Of a stretch of DNA of 64,000 nt, positions 4,335 to 43,685 are shown in pieces (the stretch's first letter is position 1; each line of letters opens with the position of its first letter). The notes under the pieces were generated by a model. The model did not search any database. It was not told the DNA's origin and was given only the letters and a program-made list of their open reading frames with translations. This DNA is from Aquiflexum lacus (GTDB lineage: Bacteria; Bacteroidota; Bacteroidia; Cytophagales; Cyclobacteriaceae): NCBI RefSeq assembly GCF_015476655.1, contig NZ_JABFHF010000032.1, positions 1-64,000 on the forward strand, read 5' to 3'. The position numbers and the translations under genes were made by a program.

Positions 4335-4535
4335 TTGGTAAGAGCCAAGAGACAAGAACCAAGAGGCAAGAGAAAAGAAGCGAGAAACGAGAGACTAGAA
4401 ACAAGAGACAAGAAGCAAGAGACAAGAAGCGAGAAACGAGAGACAAGATGCTAAGCCTACCCCGAGTATCGGGGAGCTAAGAGACAAGAACCAAGAGGTA
4501 GGATATAAGAACCGAGATGCGAGAGAAAGCTTGTC
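4335..4535. repeat. Purine-rich degenerate repeats with CCCCGA hairpin
   Basis: About 200 bp between hisF and hisIE consists of variants of AAGAGACAAGAACC and GAGAAACGAGAGAC. It contains a small hairpin, CCCCGAGTATCGGGG at 4460-4474 (6-bp stem, GTA loop). The identical 15-mer recurs at 11227-11241 and 14357-14371, each time in the same purine-rich context. The remaining 4536-4736 carries nothing I can identify. Confidence 0.7.
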
Positions 4536-9774: not shown

Positions 9775-11152
9775 ATCTCTCCAGTCTTCTGTAAAGGGAT
9801 GATCGTGTCAAGCCCAATTCCTCAGCAGCACGGGTTATATGTCCATTATGCTTTTGAAGGGCTTTTCGGATCAGGATTTTTTCCACATCTTCTATATTCA
9901 GATGGTCTAAGCTGACCATTTCCTCCTGTTTCTCTGGTGCAAGTTGCTTTTGCATAAAGAGATCTTCCGGTTGAAGTACACTGTGGGAAGTCATGATAAC
10001 AGCCCTTTCGATACTGTGCTGAAGTTCACGGATATTGCCCGGCCAATGGTATTTCTGCATTCTTTTGATCAGGGCTTCACCGGCTTTACGGATTTCCTTG
10101 TTGTATTTTTTGGAGTAAATTTCAATGAAATGGTTAGCCAGCAAAGGAATATCATCCAGCCTTTCTCTTAAAGGAGGTAGTGTGATTTCAATGGTATTGA
10201 TCCTGTAAAGTAAGTCCTGTCGGAAGGTGTTTTCATACACCATGTTATGAATATTCATGTTGGTTGCCGAAATCAACCTGATATTTACAGGAATCACTTT
10301 ATTGGAACCTACCCGCGTGACTTCTCTATTTTGAATAGCTGCCAATAATTTTGCCTGAAGGGGAAGCGGAAGGTTACCTATTTCATCCAAAAATAAGGTG
10401 CCTTTGTTGGCCTGTTCAAATCGCCCGGCCCTGTCCTCTTTGGCATCTGTAAATGATCCTCTTTTGTGCCCAAAAAGCTCACTTTCAAATAATGTACCGG
10501 TAATTGATCCCAGATCTACCCCCACAAAAGCCTCCCGGTGTCTCTTAGAATATCGATGGATGGCACGGGCAATCAGTTCCTTCCCTGTTCCGTTTTCTCC
10601 CAAAATCAGCACATTTGCATCGGTGGCCGCTACGCGATCTATGGTTTCAAAAACCTTGACCATGGGGCCACTTTGCCCAATGATATCCTTGAATTTGCTG
10701 TCTATATCCTGATAAAGCTGTTGCTGTTGGTCTTTAAGTTGGGTTATCTCCAATTTGGATTGGCGGAGTTGAAGAGCCGAGTTGAGGGTTGCCAGTAATT
10801 TTTCGTTTTCCCATGGCTTCAAAACAAAATCTGTTGCACCTTCCTTGATGGCCTTGACAGCGGTGTTGACATCTCCATAAGCAGTGATCAAAACCACCAC
10901 AGCCGAAGAATCTAACTCTAATATCCTATCCAACCAATAAAAACCTTCCTGACCACTGCTGACATCTTTGGTGAAGTTCATGTCCAACATGATCACATCA
11001 TACTGTTCGTTGACGATCAGGATCGGCAGCAAACTTGGGTTGGTTTCAGTATCTACCTGACCAAAATGCCGCTTTAAAAATATTTTGGCCGCTTTGAGCA
11101 AATCTTCATTGTCATCGACAATCAGAATTTTTCCAGTTTTTTGTTCTTTCAT
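9764..11152 (-). CDS. Sigma-54-dependent response regulator (NtrC family)
   Basis: Activator ATPase that opens sigma-54 promoters once phosphorylated. Domains: receiver (about 8-125, phospho-acceptor D57 in VIMLDMNF, KPWEN switch lysine), AAA+ domain with Walker A GENGTGKE and Walker B TLFLDEIG, and a Fis-type helix-turn-helix at the C-terminus (HITRAAEELGLTRSSLYRR). The loop that contacts sigma-54 reads GSFTDA instead of canonical GAFTGA; the essential threonine is kept. First gene of the regulator-kinase operon, divergent from the efflux adaptor gene. It probably controls that efflux operon (inference from context). Confidence 0.93.
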   Translation of the reverse strand: MKEQKTGKILIVDDNEDLLKAAKIFLKRHFGQVDTETNPSLLPILIVNEQYDVIMLDMNFTKDVSSGQEGFYWLDRILELDSSAVVVLITAYGDVNTAVKAIKEGATDFVLKPWENEKLLATLNSALQLRQSKLEITQLKDQQQQLYQDIDSKFKDIIGQSGPMVKVFETIDRVAATDANVLILGENGTGKELIARAIHRYSKRHREAFVGVDLGSITGTLFESELFGHKRGSFTDAKEDRAGRFEQANKGTLFLDEIGNLPLPLQAKLLAAIQNREVTRVGSNKVIPVNIRLISATNMNIHNMVYENTFRQDLLYRINTIEITLPPLRERLDDIPLLANHFIEIYSKKYNKEIRKAGEALIKRMQKYHWPGNIRELQHSIERAVIMTSHSVLQPEDLFMQKQLAPEKQEEMVSLDHLNIEDVEKILIRKALQKHNGHITRAAEELGLTRSSLYRRLERYGL

Positions 11153-11157
11153 TTATA

Positions 11158-11420
11158 GAGGTGAGATGTTAGACGTAAGACATGAGATTTAAGAAACAAG
11201 AAACAAGAGCCAAGAACCAAAGCCTGCCCCGAGTATCGGGGAATCAAGATTCAATAAGCAGAGGCGAGAAGCGAGAACCGAGATGATTTTAAACTAATAC
11301 CAGTTTCGAATGCGGCTTTAAATCTAAAATCTACCTTCCTACCTCTTCCATTAAAACCCACCTACTTCCGACAACTAACCTCGTACTTGGTACATTGTAC
11401 TTCGTACTTTGTTCATTCTT
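11158..11420. repeat. Composite intergenic repeats
   Basis: The 5' part (11158-11285) is purine-rich AAGAAACAAGAGCC-type sequence with the CCCCGAGTATCGGGG hairpin at 11227-11241. Then come AATCTAAAATCTACC words and a GTAC-rich stretch (TCGTACTTGGTACATTGTAC and following, about 11383-11410). All three word families recur elsewhere in the window. The unit separates the regulator gene from the promoter region of the adaptor gene. Confidence 0.65.
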
Positions 11421-11459: not shown

Positions 11460-11705
11460 ACGGACAATGTTTTTTCAAAATCGGGCATTGGATTAAAATT
11501 ACGCTATTTTTTCACTTAAATCCGAATTTAAAAATGAACTAGCATTGCACCGTTCGCTGTGGATTTTGGTCGCTGGCGGACAATTTTGTTCGATAAAAAA
11601 ACGATTCTAACTGCCAAGATGCCTTTTTTAGGTTTTTTTGGCGGTTTTGTTCGTGGCATATTAATTGGCAATAACAGATCAATCGAATAAATGGAAATTA
11701 CCACA

Positions 11706-12956
11706 ATGGATAGAAAGATTGAAAAAAAGACCTGGACCCCTAAGTTTATCGCTATGATAGCAGGAGGTACCTTATTGGTAGGATTTATTGTGTACCAATT
11801 GGTATTTGCTGATTCCAGATCTTCCATGAATGTCAACATGGAACGCATCACTATAGCCACTGTCAGAGAAGGTGAGTTTACAGATTATATTCCTGTAAGT
11901 GGTACTATAGAACCGGGAGAGGTCTTCTTCCTTGATGCATTGGAAGGCGGTAATATCCAAAGAATTGTCCGTGAATCAGGGGCTTTTGTCAATGCTGGGG
12001 ATACTATCTTATTGCTCTCCAATTCCAAACTTCAGCTCGAGGTAATGGAAAGAGAGTCAGGACTGTATTTTCAGATAAACAACCTCAGACAGGTCCGGCT
12101 CCAATTGGATCAAAATGACCTCAGTCAGCAAGGTCAGCTGGCAGAGATCGATTATCAGATCAGCTTGTTGAAGCCACAATACGAAAGATTTCGAGAGCTG
12201 CATGAAAAGAAATTGGTTTCGGACAGGGAGTTTGAAGAAGTCAAAGAACAATATGAATACAATGTCAAAAGAAGGAAATTGACTTATACAGCATATCGAA
12301 ATGATTCTATGTCCCGTGTAGCGCAGAAACGACAGCTTCAGGATTCTGAAAGTAGGATGAATCAGTCGCTAGATGGGGTGGGACACATACTAGATAACCT
12401 GGCTGTAAGGGCGCCGATTACAGGTCAACTATCGACCGAACAAATTGAAATTGGACAATCCATCAGTGCCGGAGAGAGATATGGACAGATTGATATCCTT
12501 GATAAGTTTAAAGTACGGGTGCCGATAGATGAACTGTACCTTCCAAGGATTTACACAGGATTGAAAGGAACCTTTTCATTTTCAGGTGATGATTATGAAC
12601 TTGAGATAGGGAAAATCTATCCAAATGTGACTGCGGGCAGGTTCGAGGTTGATATGTTTTTCCCTGATGAAGTTCCGACAGGAATTCGCCGGGGTCAAAC
12701 CGTAAGAATCAGGTTGGAATTGGGTGAAAGCAATCAGGCCACTTTGCTGCCAACAGGTGGCTTTTACAAGGATACCGGTGGTAATTGGGTTTTTGTGGTC
12801 GATCAACAGACCGGCAAAGCGGAAAAAAGAAATATACGCCTCGGTCGTAAAAATCCAGAATTCTACGAAGTGATTGAAGGCCTTAATATCGGAGAAAAAG
12901 TAATCGTGAGTGGTTATGAGAATTTTGGGAAGAATGAGGTGTTGAATTTGAAATAG
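11706..12956 (+). CDS. Efflux periplasmic adaptor subunit (HlyD/MacA family)
   Basis: Membrane-fusion protein linking an inner-membrane ABC transporter to an outer-membrane channel. A single N-terminal membrane helix (FIAMIAGGTLLVGFIVYQLVF) anchors it. A split lipoyl/barrel-sandwich domain follows (SGTIEPGEVFFLDALEGG, then AVRAPITGQLS), separated by a long alpha-helical hairpin (about 110-225), with beta-barrel and membrane-proximal domains after it. The start is set at ATG 11706 (MDRKIEKK), as typical relatives begin; an in-frame ATG lies at 11691. The gene heads the transporter operon, but the next gene downstream is the four-helix-bundle insertion, not the ATPase. Confidence 0.9.
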   Translation: MDRKIEKKTWTPKFIAMIAGGTLLVGFIVYQLVFADSRSSMNVNMERITIATVREGEFTDYIPVSGTIEPGEVFFLDALEGGNIQRIVRESGAFVNAGDTILLLSNSKLQLEVMERESGLYFQINNLRQVRLQLDQNDLSQQGQLAEIDYQISLLKPQYERFRELHEKKLVSDREFEEVKEQYEYNVKRRKLTYTAYRNDSMSRVAQKRQLQDSESRMNQSLDGVGHILDNLAVRAPITGQLSTEQIEIGQSISAGERYGQIDILDKFKVRVPIDELYLPRIYTGLKGTFSFSGDDYELEIGKIYPNVTAGRFEVDMFFPDEVPTGIRRGQTVRIRLELGESNQATLLPTGGFYKDTGGNWVFVVDQQTGKAEKRNIRLGRKNPEFYEVIEGLNIGEKVIVSGYENFGKNEVLNLK

Positions 12957-12960
12957 TATT

Positions 12961-13563
12961 TGTCAGATGTCGGATGACAGATGACCGATGTTAGGTTTAA
13001 ATAAATTAAAGAAGTTAGATTATAAAATAAACGATTAAGTTTCAATGTATTTTATTTTCAATGATTTGGTTTTGGTATTTTGACTTGTAAATCTAAATCT
13101 AGACCCTGGAAATCATGAAATTTAAATTTGAAAAACTGACCATTTGGCAAAAAGCCATGGATTTTGGAGAAGAGCTATTTGAAATGAGCTCGAGATTTCC
13201 AAAAGAGGAAAAGTATAACCTTATTTCTCAGATCAGGAAAGCTTCAGATTCTATTGCCTTAAACATTTCTGAAGGTTCGATTGGACAATCAAATCTGGAA
13301 TTCAAAAGATTCTTAGGATATGCTATAAGGTCTCTTGCAGAAGTAGTCACCTGCCTGCATAAGTCAAAAAGAAGAAAATATATAAATGAAAGTGATTTCA
13401 AAATATTGTATGACGAAGCCTTTTATTTAATGAACATGATGAATTCCTTCAAATCAAAAATCAAATAATTATTCTATAATTTACAATGAAATCATCTGTC
13501 ATTCGACCCCTGTCATGATTATCAGAAACCCAACATCGGTCATCGGTCATCTGACATCGGTCA
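12961..13563 (+). mobile_element. Putative IVS-like element: four-helix-bundle gene framed by 38-bp inverted repeats
   Basis: The left arm (12961-12998) and the reverse complement of the right arm (13526-13563) match at 33 of 38 positions. The arms are made of GATGACCGATG-like words. A further inner inverted pair exists (12971-12984 against 13493-13506, 13 of 14). They enclose a single gene (13115-13468) of the S23/four-helix-bundle family, which is known from intervening sequences in 23S rRNA. Here the unit lies between the adaptor and ATPase genes of an ABC efflux operon. No target duplication or transposase is seen. Mobility is inferred, not shown. Confidence 0.5.
13115..13468 (+). CDS. 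Four-helix bundle protein (S23/IVS-encoded family)
   Basis: A 117-aa all-helical protein with the family hallmarks: LTIWQKAMDF at the N-terminus, FPKEEKYNLISQIRKAS in helix 2, IALNISEGS, and the FKRFLGYAIRSLAEV segment. Members are encoded in 23S rRNA intervening sequences, and distant relatives include the Avd accessory protein of diversity-generating retroelements, where a positively charged surface binds nucleic acid. No reverse transcriptase or template/variable repeat is present here. Its role is unknown. It is an intact frame sitting inside an efflux operon and framed by long inverted repeats. Confidence 0.9.
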   Translation: MKFKFEKLTIWQKAMDFGEELFEMSSRFPKEEKYNLISQIRKASDSIALNISEGSIGQSNLEFKRFLGYAIRSLAEVVTCLHKSKRRKYINESDFKILYDEAFYLMNMMNSFKSKIK

Positions 13564-13638
13564 AGAAGCAACCAAAACACAAAAAACAACATCTAATAAA
13601 CAAAACAACTTAACTACCTCAATACAAACCTCAATCCC

Positions 13639-14337
13639 ATGCAAAACATCATCAAAACCGTCAATCTCAAAAAACTCTACACCACTGAAGAAGTAGAGAC
13701 TACTGCCTTGGATGATATCAATATAGAAATCAAAAAAGGAGAATTTGTGGCAATTATGGGCCCATCAGGTTGTGGCAAATCTACTTTGCTCAATATTATA
13801 GGGCTATTAGATAATCCTGATGCAGGTGAATACCATTTTATTGAAAGTGAAGTGGCCAGATTCTCTGAAAGACAAAGATCCCAACTTAGAAAAGGTAACA
13901 TTGGATTTGTTTTCCAAAGCTTTAACCTGATCGATGAACTCACAGTATTTGAAAATGTAGAATTACCCCTTTTGTACTTAAAGACTCCGTCTGATGAAAG
14001 AAAAAGAAGGGTTGAGGAAGTGCTGACCCGAATGGGAATCATGCACAGAAAAGACCATTTCCCGCAGCAACTTTCCGGGGGACAGCAACAAAGGGTAGCC
14101 ATAGCCCGGGCTATTGTGGCTAAACCCTCCGTGATACTTGCCGATGAACCTACAGGTAACCTTGATTCAGCAAACGGCGAAGAAGTAATGAGATTGTTGG
14201 AAGAACTTAACAATGAAGGAACCACCATTGTGATGGTAACCCACTCTCCCCATGATGCTAACTATGCCCACAGAATCATCAACCTGTTTGATGGCAAAGT
14301 GGTGACTGAAAATATCAGAGAGCAGTTTCATGTTTAG
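13639..14337 (+). CDS. ABC transporter ATP-binding protein (MacB-like)
   Basis: ATPase subunit of the efflux system. Walker [10 protein letters not shown] (about 44-52), Q-loop FVFQSFNL, signature LSGGQQQR, Walker [13 protein letters not shown] and the switch histidine (VMVTHSPHD) are intact; 232 aa is usual. It works with the two FtsX permeases that follow and the adaptor at 11706. The arrangement resembles MacAB, but with the ATPase and permease on separate chains. Confidence 0.94.
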
Positions 14338-14630
14338 AGGCAAGAGTTAAAGCCTGCCCCGAGTATCGGGGAACCAAGAACCAAGATGGAGATGCGAGAG
14401 ACGAGAACCGAGACCTGAGAGATGAGTTGAGAAAGTCGAAAGAATAGAATCTCGCATCAAAGCCTACCCTGAGTATTTCGGGCCAAGAAGAGAAATCCGG
14501 GGAGATATGTCCTAACCAAACCCCGATACTGAGGTTAAATCTAAAATCTAAAATTTAAAATCTACCTTCTACCTTCATCCCTCATCCCTTATCCTTCATC
14601 CTTTACAACTTCCCACTCCCCAGCTTCCTA
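14338..14630. repeat. Purine-rich then pyrimidine-rich repeat leader
   Basis: The first half (14338-14480) has AACCAAGAACCAAG and GATGCGAGAGACGAG words plus the CCCCGAGTATCGGGG hairpin at 14357-14371. A degenerate hairpin relative lies near 14467. The second half (about 14536-14610) has AATCTAAAATC and TTCATCCCTCATCC words. The two halves are partly complementary and could fold together in the mRNA leader of the first permease. Confidence 0.6.
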
Positions 14631-14632
14631 CC

Positions 14633-16993
14633 ATGTTATCCATCTATCTCAAAACCGCCCTAAGAAGTTTTAAGAAGCACAGAATGACCTTCGGGATCAA
14701 TCTTCTGGGGCTTACTTTGGGGCTTACCACTGTGATTTTGATCATGTTGTGGGTTAAGGATGAAATGTGTATCAATAGGTATCATGCACTTGGGGATAGG
14801 ATTTATGCCGTTTTCACCAATCATGATAATTCAGCTGGTATGGTAACCATAGGAGTTACTCCTGCTGAAATGGCTGAAGCCATGGAGGCTGATCTTGCCC
14901 AGGTGGAAATGGCAGCAGCTTATTCCCCTTTTATAGAAGGTGTGTCTTTTGATAAGGGTGGAGAAATACAGATTGCGGATGGCTTGTTTGTAGATCAGCA
15001 ATACTTGGATATCTTCAGTATAGAGTTTCTGGAAGGAGATAAAAACCAAGCTTTGATTGACATCAATGCAGTTGTATTGTCAGAATCAACTGCCAATAAG
15101 ATTTTTGGCTCCACAAAAGAGGCCTTGGGAAAATCCCTGAAGTGGTCTGTTTTTGAATTTGGGAATGATGTTCTGGTAAGTGGGGTTTATAAGGATTTTG
15201 GGTCCAAAGATGTGGATAAGCCGGAATTTCTGATGTCATTTCCCTATTTCAGGAAAATGCTCGGTGATCGTGCTCATTGGGATAATTTCAACGCTGGTAC
15301 ATATCTGTTGTTAAGAGAGGGAACAGATATAGATGGCTTCAATTTTCAGATAAAAGATTATATCAAAGGAAAAAAAGCAGACAGCAATGTAACACCTTTT
15401 GTTCAGTCCTTTGAAGATACCTACTTGTATGGAACCTATGAAGATGGAAAAGTGGTCGGTGGTAGGATCAATTACGTTTGGATTTTTTCAGCCATAGCTT
15501 TCTTTATTTTGATGATTGCCTGTATCAATTTTATGAACCTAACCACGGCTAGGACCATGAATAGGATCAAAGAAATAGGTGTCAAGAAATCTATGGGTGC
15601 AAGTCGTGGCGGGCTATTCAGTCAATTTATGGTTGAAACCATGCTGCTCAGTTTTTTTGCGATGATTTCTGCACTGGTTTTAGCCAAATTATTACAGCCG
15701 TTTTTCAATCAGGTGTCGATGAAAGAAATGGTTCTGGATTTAAATTTAAGCTTGGTCCTGTTGCTTGGTTCTATTTGGGTGTTGACAGCTTTGATGGCGG
15801 GAATATACCCATCCCTATATTTATCTAAGTTTAGACCCATTCAGATCCTCAAAAGCAATGTTAAAGGAAGTTTCGGAGAGCTTATGGCAAGAAAGGGTCT
15901 GGTCGTTTTTCAGTTCTCCATTTCCTTGTTATTGATTATCGGGATTGTAGTGATAGGAAAACAGATGTCTTTTATCCAAAATCAAAATCTTGGCTATAAC
16001 CAATCCAACTTGCTTCAAGTGAATTCTTCTTCGATTTCTGACGCCCAGCTAGAACTGTTTTTAAATCAGGTAAGAGGATTGCCCGGTGTTGAAAATGCAT
16101 CAAGTATAGCTCACCCATTGATTGGGTTGATGAGCTCAACTATTGGATTGCATTGGGAAGGAAAAAATCCTGATGAACAGGTCAAATTTGAGAATATTAG
16201 CGTGAATATGGATTTGATCGAAACTATGGAATTTGAGATTTTGGAGGGGAGGTCATTTTCAAGAGAGTTTGGAGACGAAAAAAGTAAAATTATCCTAAAT
16301 GAGGAAGCTGTCAGCGTGATCGGGCTGAAAGAACCAATTGGTACCATAGTCAATCTTTGGGGAAATGATATGGAAGTGATTGGGATTTTGAAAAATTTCC
16401 ATTTCGAGTCATTGAAAGAAACTGTAAAGCCAGCTTTTTTAAAGTATGGCGATTCATTTATGCAAAAAATTATCCTAAGGATAAACATCGAAAATCAAAC
16501 TAATTCAATTGCTGCTCTTTCGGGATTATATCAGGATCTTTTTGATCAAAAGATGGATTTCAGCTTTATGGATGAAGATTTTCAGAGCTTGTACAGTCAG
16601 GAGCAACGTGTTTCCAAACTGGCTAAGTATTTTGGGGTAGTTGCTGTTTTCCTTTCATGTTTAGGCTTGTTTGGATTGGCAGCTTTTACAGTTGAAAACC
16701 GGAAAAAAGAAATAGGTATTAGAAAAGTATTGGGTGCCTCAATCAATTCCATTTTATATATGATCGTGAGGGACTTTGTATTACTTGTTCTGATATCAAT
16801 TTTATTAATAATGCCTTTGGCATGGTATCTATCCAATTCCTGGCTTCAGGTATATGCATATAAAACAAGTCTTAGCTGGTGGATTTTTGCAGGAGGAGCT
16901 ACCATAGTCCTGATGATTGCTTTGATTACAGTCAGTTTTCAGGCTTTAAAAGCAGCTAGCAATAATCCGGTCAATTCCCTGAGTTCTGAGTAA
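14633..16993 (+). CDS. ABC transporter permease, FtsX/MacB domain
   Basis: Inner-membrane permease of 786 aa. Layout: a first membrane helix (about 20-41), a periplasmic MacB-type core (about 42-280), a three-helix FtsX domain (about 283-400), a repeated unit with a helix near 425, a second periplasmic part, and a final FtsX domain (about 675-780) ending in the usual ALKAASNNPVNSL tail. The coupling motifs KEIGVKKSMGAS and KEIGIRKVLGAS follow helices, as in other FtsX proteins. Works with the ATPase at 13639. Substrate unknown. Confidence 0.93.
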   Translation: MLSIYLKTALRSFKKHRMTFGINLLGLTLGLTTVILIMLWVKDEMCINRYHALGDRIYAVFTNHDNSAGMVTIGVTPAEMAEAMEADLAQVEMAAAYSPFIEGVSFDKGGEIQIADGLFVDQQYLDIFSIEFLEGDKNQALIDINAVVLSESTANKIFGSTKEALGKSLKWSVFEFGNDVLVSGVYKDFGSKDVDKPEFLMSFPYFRKMLGDRAHWDNFNAGTYLLLREGTDIDGFNFQIKDYIKGKKADSNVTPFVQSFEDTYLYGTYEDGKVVGGRINYVWIFSAIAFFILMIACINFMNLTTARTMNRIKEIGVKKSMGASRGGLFSQFMVETMLLSFFAMISALVLAKLLQPFFNQVSMKEMVLDLNLSLVLLLGSIWVLTALMAGIYPSLYLSKFRPIQILKSNVKGSFGELMARKGLVVFQFSISLLLIIGIVVIGKQMSFIQNQNLGYNQSNLLQVNSSSISDAQLELFLNQVRGLPGVENASSIAHPLIGLMSSTIGLHWEGKNPDEQVKFENISVNMDLIETMEFEILEGRSFSREFGDEKSKIILNEEAVSVIGLKEPIGTIVNLWGNDMEVIGILKNFHFESLKETVKPAFLKYGDSFMQKIILRINIENQTNSIAALSGLYQDLFDQKMDFSFMDEDFQSLYSQEQRVSKLAKYFGVVAVFLSCLGLFGLAAFTVENRKKEIGIRKVLGASINSILYMIVRDFVLLVLISILLIMPLAWYLSNSWLQVYAYKTSLSWWIFAGGATIVLMIALITVSFQALKAASNNPVNSLSSE

Positions 16994-43606: not shown

Positions 43607-43638
43607 ATCTTCGGTCTTCGGTCTTTCGTCTTCTGTCT
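43607..43638. repeat. TCTTCGGTCTTCGG simple repeat
   Basis: A short degenerate run of TCTTCGGTCTTCGGTCTTTC and TCTTCTGTC words upstream of the glycosidase-like gene. It is another intergenic repeat with its own word family. Confidence 0.5.
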
Positions 43639-43685
43639 AAAAAGAAAATGAATAGTGGGTCCAATTATCCTTTCCGCTAATCATT

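Follow-up and report, generated by a model that had tools for sequence, protein, structure and literature searches.

An S23-family gene framed by inverted heptad arrays in an export operon of Aquiflexum lacus: a candidate operon-borne element of the 23S rRNA intervening sequence type

The described systems closest to the unit reported here are the intervening sequences (IVS) of 23S rRNA. For Coxiella burnetii, the passages of PMC4990558 dealing with the 23S IVS describe two to three tandem GACAGAT heptads and one degenerate copy before an S23 gene, a heptad number that varies by strain, a 28-bp terminal stem and cutting by RNase III; S23/IVP proteins are said there to have no known function, and the Xanthomonas S23 protein is given as a pentamer. 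Intergenic TAACTGA heptads, reported from Beggiatoaceae, Cyanobacteria and Bacteroidetes, are described as lying in forward orientation just before start codons in several genomes and once reversed just after a stop codon, and translational regulation was proposed for them (MacGregor 2015, PMC4679880); the main text of that paper does not contain the terms ‘23S’, ‘S23’ or ‘four helix’. The cyanobacterial STRR are, in the account given by PMC2670836, 7-bp repeats of unknown function which can form hairpins and are also found in an operon gap. Finally, REPIN/RAYT systems as outlined in PMC8266576 pair a protein gene with many short inverted repeats that co-evolve with it, RAYT being a HuH nuclease. 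Among the matches listed for the open-licence PubMed Central literature, no paper was found that connects S23/four-helix genes with heptad arrays in operons, and none that connects STRR with S23 genes.

The window (the whole stretch of 64 kb of A. lacus DNA that was analysed) contains an export operon on the forward strand, for which open reading frames and profile matches identify a periplasmic adaptor of the HlyD/RND type (11691–12956), an ABC transporter ATPase (13639–14337) and a permease of the MacB/FtsX type (14633–16993). The gap between adaptor and ATPase holds a forward-strand gene (13115–13468) for an S23 (23S rRNA IVP, four-helix-bundle) protein of 117 aa, so that both the family and the placement given by the original prediction are confirmed. 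The protein matches PF05635 with 110.6 bits (cut-off 33.8) and TIGR02436 with 103.5 bits (cut-off 24), and only S23-type and Avd profiles match it. Its AF2 model (pLDDT 83) has four helices, the fourth of which is predicted to carry residue 104, a Tyr. The solved structures closest to the model are the S23 proteins 2gsc (TM 0.80–0.87; the S23 fold has been solved since 2006 with this entry) and 2rld, with five chains each. DGR Avd has a fold resembling that of the window protein (4dwl, 8ub7/8ub8; Foldseek E 0.25–0.4, TM about 0.75) and ranks further down among the structure matches, while its profile matches weakly (NF033474, 20.1 bits against a cut-off of 80), and no reverse transcriptase was found among the four operon proteins scanned. 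The gene and its ortholog in the genus mate differ by a dN of 0.029 and a dS of 0.531, and dN/dS is about 0.05–0.16 in the five closest ortholog pairs, which indicates purifying selection.

Inside the same gap the gene is framed by an inverted pair, whose upstream arm (12960–12998, forward strand) begins 3 nt past the adaptor stop codon and whose downstream arm lies at 13526–13564 (reverse strand). Recounting from the letters reproduced the 33 of 38 inverted positions predicted for 12961–12998 and 13526–13563, and the slightly wider span yields 39 nt with 87% complementarity, the longest inverted pair within 1500 nt anywhere in the 64-kb window. The shorter inner pair that had also been noticed corresponds to a degenerate inner copy of the downstream arm (13492–13515, reverse strand), a second partner for 12961–12984. 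The prediction mentioned neither a link between word and protein nor the heptad structure of the arms: both are arrays of the degenerate heptad GA(A/T)G(A/T)CN (GAWGWCN) reading inward on each side, with about five heptads upstream and the reverse complement of the same word downstream. The flank score of the unit is 26.5, while among the 54 other genes of the window one reaches 12.5 and none reaches 15. In the predicted fold of the transcript 12950–13640 (−153.4 kcal/mol, z −4.67 with 20 shuffles), the gene is held in a stem loop, which agrees with the earlier proposal that the arms could pair and loop it out.

Like the 23S rRNA IVS, the unit would thus form a stem from inverted ends and carry an S23-family gene in the loop, and the Coxiella heptad GACAGAT is a rotation of GATGACA, which fits the window word. 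The two differ in that the IVS sits in rRNA, while the window unit sits in a protein operon and has arms which are themselves heptad arrays, with many words. That the S23 unit is part of a 23S rRNA was rejected, given the protein operon on both sides and the lack of any Rfam match for the nine own-genome loci; carriage by phages or viruses was likewise rejected, with no relatives in viral contigs or phages. Heptad-like arrays of other words (AAGAACC, GAGATNN, GTACNNN and CTAAAAT types, with the GTAC array at 11383–11407) were also seen by eye in the gaps 11150–11420 and 14340–14632, which have no S23 gene. The window also contains a repeat of 22 nt, AAGCCTGCCCCGAGTATCGGGG, which is partly palindromic and present in three copies (4453–4474, 11220–11241 and 14350–14371, one with a mismatch), and two of its copies fall in the heptad gaps around the first operon genes.

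Inverted arms are a general feature of S23 loci. With a flank score of at least 12.5 counted as armed, 127 of 197 S23-family loci have such arms (not all of them independent, because orthologs are included), as against 6 of 152 other genes, which were taken from the window and from the named loci; the remaining 70 S23 loci have none at this threshold. By source, the armed loci amount to 49/75 for close relatives, 60/99 for the family sample and 18/23 for ten chosen genomes. The 197 were kept from 212, leaving out proteins outside 85–175 aa, L132 and loci with flanks shorter than 120 nt; further rows were left out for short flanks (L028, L059) or from the family-sample flank scoring (L118, L132, L010, L148). 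The S23 family is present in 35 of 41 genomes of the same GTDB family, where 56 of 98 loci score at or above the 99th percentile set by 588 cross-locus pairs (10 of 98 in direct orientation). PF05635 matches the own genome at nine places; internal stops interrupt two of these, and one passes the cut-off only with its neighbours. Eight of the nine beat the best of 30 shuffles for inverted flank matches, with differing words, so of the earlier expectation that the arms recur around other four-helix-bundle genes the inverted arrangement stands, while the arm sequence itself is absent at the other eight copies. Identity at lag 7 is 0.62 in arms against 0.28 in genes, and among the 127 armed loci the best lag is 7 or 14 for 102 and 8 for 19; the word differs between S23 subfamilies and the period is mostly 7, sometimes 8. 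Arm length peaks at 4–5 units (65/127 upstream, 75/127 downstream). For the TAACTGA repeats, the relevant passages of PMC4679880 mention no inverted arms flanking a gene. Among the 187 S23 loci with both neighbours, 158 genes lie in sense between two co-directional genes and 9 lie antisense, the corresponding figures for control ORFs of 80–200 aa being 43 and 7 of 82.

Of the 127 armed loci 125 were folded, and in 115 of these half of the arm or more is predicted to pair, as expected, because the loci were chosen by arm complementarity. The make-up of word base 3 is correlated between upstream and downstream arms (0.90; 59 of 78 loci, those with heptads in both). Inverted copying or covariation of the arms heptad by heptad, initially positive (89 loci, mean rank 0.78), was rejected: heptad order in the window subfamily shows no excess over the cross-locus control (own 0.67, n = 33, vs. 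0.70, n = 250), so that arm pairing follows from the shared word. The rank for the other subfamilies (0.83, n = 56) is a figure without cross-locus control.

The same operon was compared in relatives with and without the unit, as had been proposed, and its gap was found to be empty or to hold either this gene or other S23 genes. Of 80 named relatives, 11 (Algoriphagus, Pararhodonellum, Rhodonellum, Aquiflexum and Cognataquiflexum, members of the Cyclobacteriaceae) have this gene in the gap, as does the genus mate (L018). Judged by eye, heptads flank the gene on both sides in all 13 orthologous loci, the window being one of them, and both arms use the same type: GATG-type words in Algoriphagus and the window genus, GAAG-type words in the other four genera. 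For the family sample, 30 of 33 ATPase matches were taken as loci, 27 of which have the adaptor upstream; L220, L224 and L241, where no adaptor was found upstream, were not counted as empty sites. Five of these 27 operons carry an S23 gene in the adaptor–ATPase gap (L219, which is the window, L223, L226, L240 and L248) and 22 do not. The gap genes of L240 and L248 belong to other S23 subfamilies, in genomes without a match to the window protein at 1e-20, and their arms are weak (scores 9.5 and 12.5). In L225, whose gap has no S23 gene, a window-type gene lies in the next gap. The gaps of L221 and L222 hold heptads and no gene, while the remaining gene-less gaps (5–300 nt) have no heptads visible by eye. 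Taken together, the occupied and empty gaps and the variety of S23 genes in them identify the unit, as far as sequence comparison goes, as an insertion into the export operon, which was entered more than once. The original view of an IVS-type element living in protein operons therefore largely holds, on account of the empty sites, the recurring arms, the sense orientation in operons and the Coxiella heptads; the kinship does not extend to a position in 23S rRNA.

Whether loci share a flank word depends on how similar their proteins are. Out of 19306 locus pairs 5000 were drawn, 4597 of which are in different gene contexts; for these, the word is shared by 0.9–1.7% of pairs when protein identity is below 45%, by 3% at 45–50%, 15% at 50–55%, 17% at 55–60%, 27% at 60–70% and 50% above 70% (antisense control 0–8.5%). 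For the 112 loci outside the window subfamily the trend is weak, with 1.5–1.8% below 45% identity, 2.4% at 45–50%, 4.7% at 50–55%, 10.4% at 55–60%, 1/16 at 60–70% and 2/3 above. In these comparisons, confined to sequence, the link between word and protein across contexts is established for the window subfamily, which is found in many gene contexts, and weak for the other subfamilies. Within the family sample, four of the five genomes that have a gene of 60% identity or more contain arrays of the window word, as does one of the 36 others (Fisher p 2.4e-4, or 0.0016 excluding the genus mate), where a backwards control pattern matches 3 of 41 genomes against 5 of 41 for the true one. A phylum sample of 198 genomes has arrays in 3/4 with a close gene and in 17/194 without (p 0.003), which says little because the backwards control is found as widely as the pattern (24 genomes vs. 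20). For the GTAC word, arrays were predicted beforehand for G000, G001, G021 and G039 and were present in all four, and in 3 of 37 others, a result that is weak against shared ancestry because six of the seven genomes are close relatives (ATPase at least 95% identical). Three window-type proteins (L313, L316 and L127; 62–65% identical) have an apparent octad word, GGAGGTTN, of period 8, and the first two have Thr104. Genes 68% identical to that of the window are found on short contigs filed as a Nitrotoga MAG (L053) and a Bdellovibrio MAG (L077), which are likely mis-binned Bacteroidota.

The differences between words within the window subfamily raise the question of which residues accompany them. 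In 68 of 85 window-type loci (17 with fewer than four window-word heptads were left out), protein column 104 best explains word base 3. All 26 loci with Asn104 have GAAG words (T-fraction 0–0.13) and the five with Asp104 are similar (0–0.08), while the T-fraction is at least 0.25 in all 25 loci with His (19 loci, 0.25–1.0), Tyr (four, 0.88–1.0) or Lys (two, 1.0); the eight Glu104 loci are mixed and four loci have another residue or a gap. The association holds with phylogeny taken into account (PGLS p 7e-6, the best of 190 base-3 tests; Pagel p 1e-5, where parsimony counts 11 changes of the residue and 9 of the word), and becomes moderate once the whole base-3 scan is counted (p 0.027 with 300 simulations; five base positions were scanned). 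A rule fixed beforehand for residue 104 could be applied to five of 20 newly fetched loci and was correct in four. The two close homologues among the five both obey it, and two of the five are judged from just three heptads. The 39 array matches of the own genome, some of which overlap, comprise 18 GAAG, 18 GATG and 3 mixed, compared with 29 mixed expected under free mixing, yet the only window-type protein of this genome has Tyr104, so that half of its arrays do not fit the rule. Column 63 also gave a signal, for base 5 (PGLS p 2.7e-4); with 190 tests at each of five positions, it is not claimed as a second base-reading residue. The way in which residue 104 tracks base 3 suggests that the protein reads the word.

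Arms of this kind are also found in other phyla. A tblastn search of plasmids gave matches in Cyanobacteriota, Azospirillum and Gemmatirosa. In a set of 21 plasmid loci (the best place of 11 records and 10 chosen from the best 30 of 35 records; the pairs L335/L342 and L338/L341 look near-identical), 15 have inverted arms and six have none at the threshold, a score that cross-locus pairs reach in 38 of 420 cases. The best lag in the armed ones is 7 or 14 in ten and 8 in five. Among their words are GGGAACA and GGGTGTA types; one from Azospirillum, a GAKGACR type, resembles that of the window. The heptad arrays flanking S23 genes on cyanobacterial plasmids share their 7-bp period with the STRR, and their words are presumably STRR words. 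On three of these plasmids (L333, L336, L337) the S23 gene, with arms of heptads or octads, is part of a CRISPR-cas operon, in the order cas6-S23-cas4 or cas10-S23-cmr3. A figure legend on CRISPR-associated proteins in a 2023 survey (PMC10910872) carries the abbreviation 23S rRNA IVP, which may reflect such arrangements.

Arrays of the window word are also dispersed through the own genome and that of the genus mate, both as solo arrays and as paired arrays without a gene. The 48 arrays considered come from 30 loci of G000, which has 39 matches, and from 17 sites picked by hand in G001; six of the arrays lie inside mechanical ORFs. Heptad runs of 3 to 9 units at these loci number 5, 24, 21, 2, 1, 3 and 3 (runs below 3 are undetectable by the method used). 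An inverted partner is present for 14 of the 42 arrays outside ORFs, a share biased upwards because of the choice of sites. Three gene-less cores are common to G000 and G001 with 75–81% identity (orthology only partly checked), and the left arms of L206 and L299 differ in sub-word. One solo array lies in the window itself, in reverse orientation (43607–43640). Window-word heptads also seem, by eye, to lie in the middle of a separate dispersed element roughly 150 nt long, parts of which resemble GCCAGTAACCC and TTGCGTACATA; it is seen at L195, L200, L202, L208, L210 and L216, and downstream of the gene in L038 and L085.

Such dispersal invites comparison with REPIN/RAYT: cognate repeats are likewise scattered through genomes that hold the gene, as seen in the family sample and much less clearly in the phylum sample. 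The arrays could accordingly be DNA ends on which the S23 protein acts, directly or with an unknown enzyme, solo and gene-less arrays being non-autonomous copies and transcription incidental. The many contexts of the window subfamily would fit this, as would nine gene-less paired elements in two genomes, with cores of 118–339 nt lacking S23 similarity (tblastn found no remnant of an S23 gene in them), solo arrays between genes that are not co-directional, and a polarity that agrees with element ends in 35 of 42 solo arrays, whose nearest ORF lies 5′ of the word (p 1.5e-5). RAYT is however a HuH nuclease, while the window protein matched only S23-type families and folds, with no HuH transposase, nuclease or transposase domain in profile and structure searches, and the strong bias of S23 genes towards sense orientation in operons also speaks against a DNA system of this kind, which we regard as unlikely.

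The position of the solo arrays could also point to a stable chromosomal regulator, in which the S23 ring would act post-transcriptionally on heptad sites near start or stop codons and its own gene would be autoregulated through its flanks, with nothing mobile. Among the 42 arrays outside ORFs, an ORF lies within 20 nt on the 5′ side in 12 cases and on the 3′ side in none; the TAACTGA repeats, for which translational regulation was proposed (PMC4679880), have a similar polarity relative to genes in several genomes. Purifying selection on the S23 gene and a site kept in 13 loci agree with such a role. On the other hand, one and the same subfamily appears in many contexts, two own-genome copies have internal stops, and other S23 subfamilies occupy the same gap, so this explanation seems to us quite improbable. 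That slippage-prone intergenic heptad arrays are merely tolerated by S23 genes is very hard to believe, although many gaps without S23 genes do hold heptad arrays, considering the strong contrast between 127/197 S23 loci and 6/152 other genes, the inverted polarity of the arms, the word following the protein in the window subfamily, and array lengths that peak instead of decaying steadily.

We therefore favour, with slightly better than even confidence, reading 12960–13564 as an operon-borne element of the 23S rRNA IVS type, composed of the gene for an S23 ring and inverted arrays of the ring's own recognition word. The S23 product would form a small ring, five-membered in the solved relative, and in the operon mRNA the arms would pair and hold the gene in a stem loop. 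The TRAP ring binds triplets; by analogy, the S23 ring may read the word directly and bind an array of four to five heptads, perhaps one heptad per subunit, and once bound it could guard or use the stem. The stem may in turn be a target for RNase III or another double-strand nuclease, whose cut would separate the adaptor and ATPase messages. Solo arrays and gene-less paired arrays would be derivatives spread or kept by the same S23 protein. More tentatively, and at rather less than even confidence, S23/IVP proteins in general may be a large family of sequence-reading rings found across phyla, each subfamily with its own word of 7 or 8 bases, about one word per subunit and a specificity partly set by residue 104 in helix 4; their genes would be framed by arrays of the word, solo arrays (STRRs, the TAACTGA repeats and their kin) would be their footprints, and the rRNA IVS would be a special case.

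The link between S23 subfamily and word offers a common, testable explanation for the function of S23 proteins and for heptad repeats such as STRR and TAACTGA. If it is true, a ring protein would read tandem heptads, possibly with a swappable code, and the intervening sequences of rRNA would become one case of a widespread operon-borne element, while the arrays flanking S23 genes may explain a long-puzzling class of seven-base repeats.
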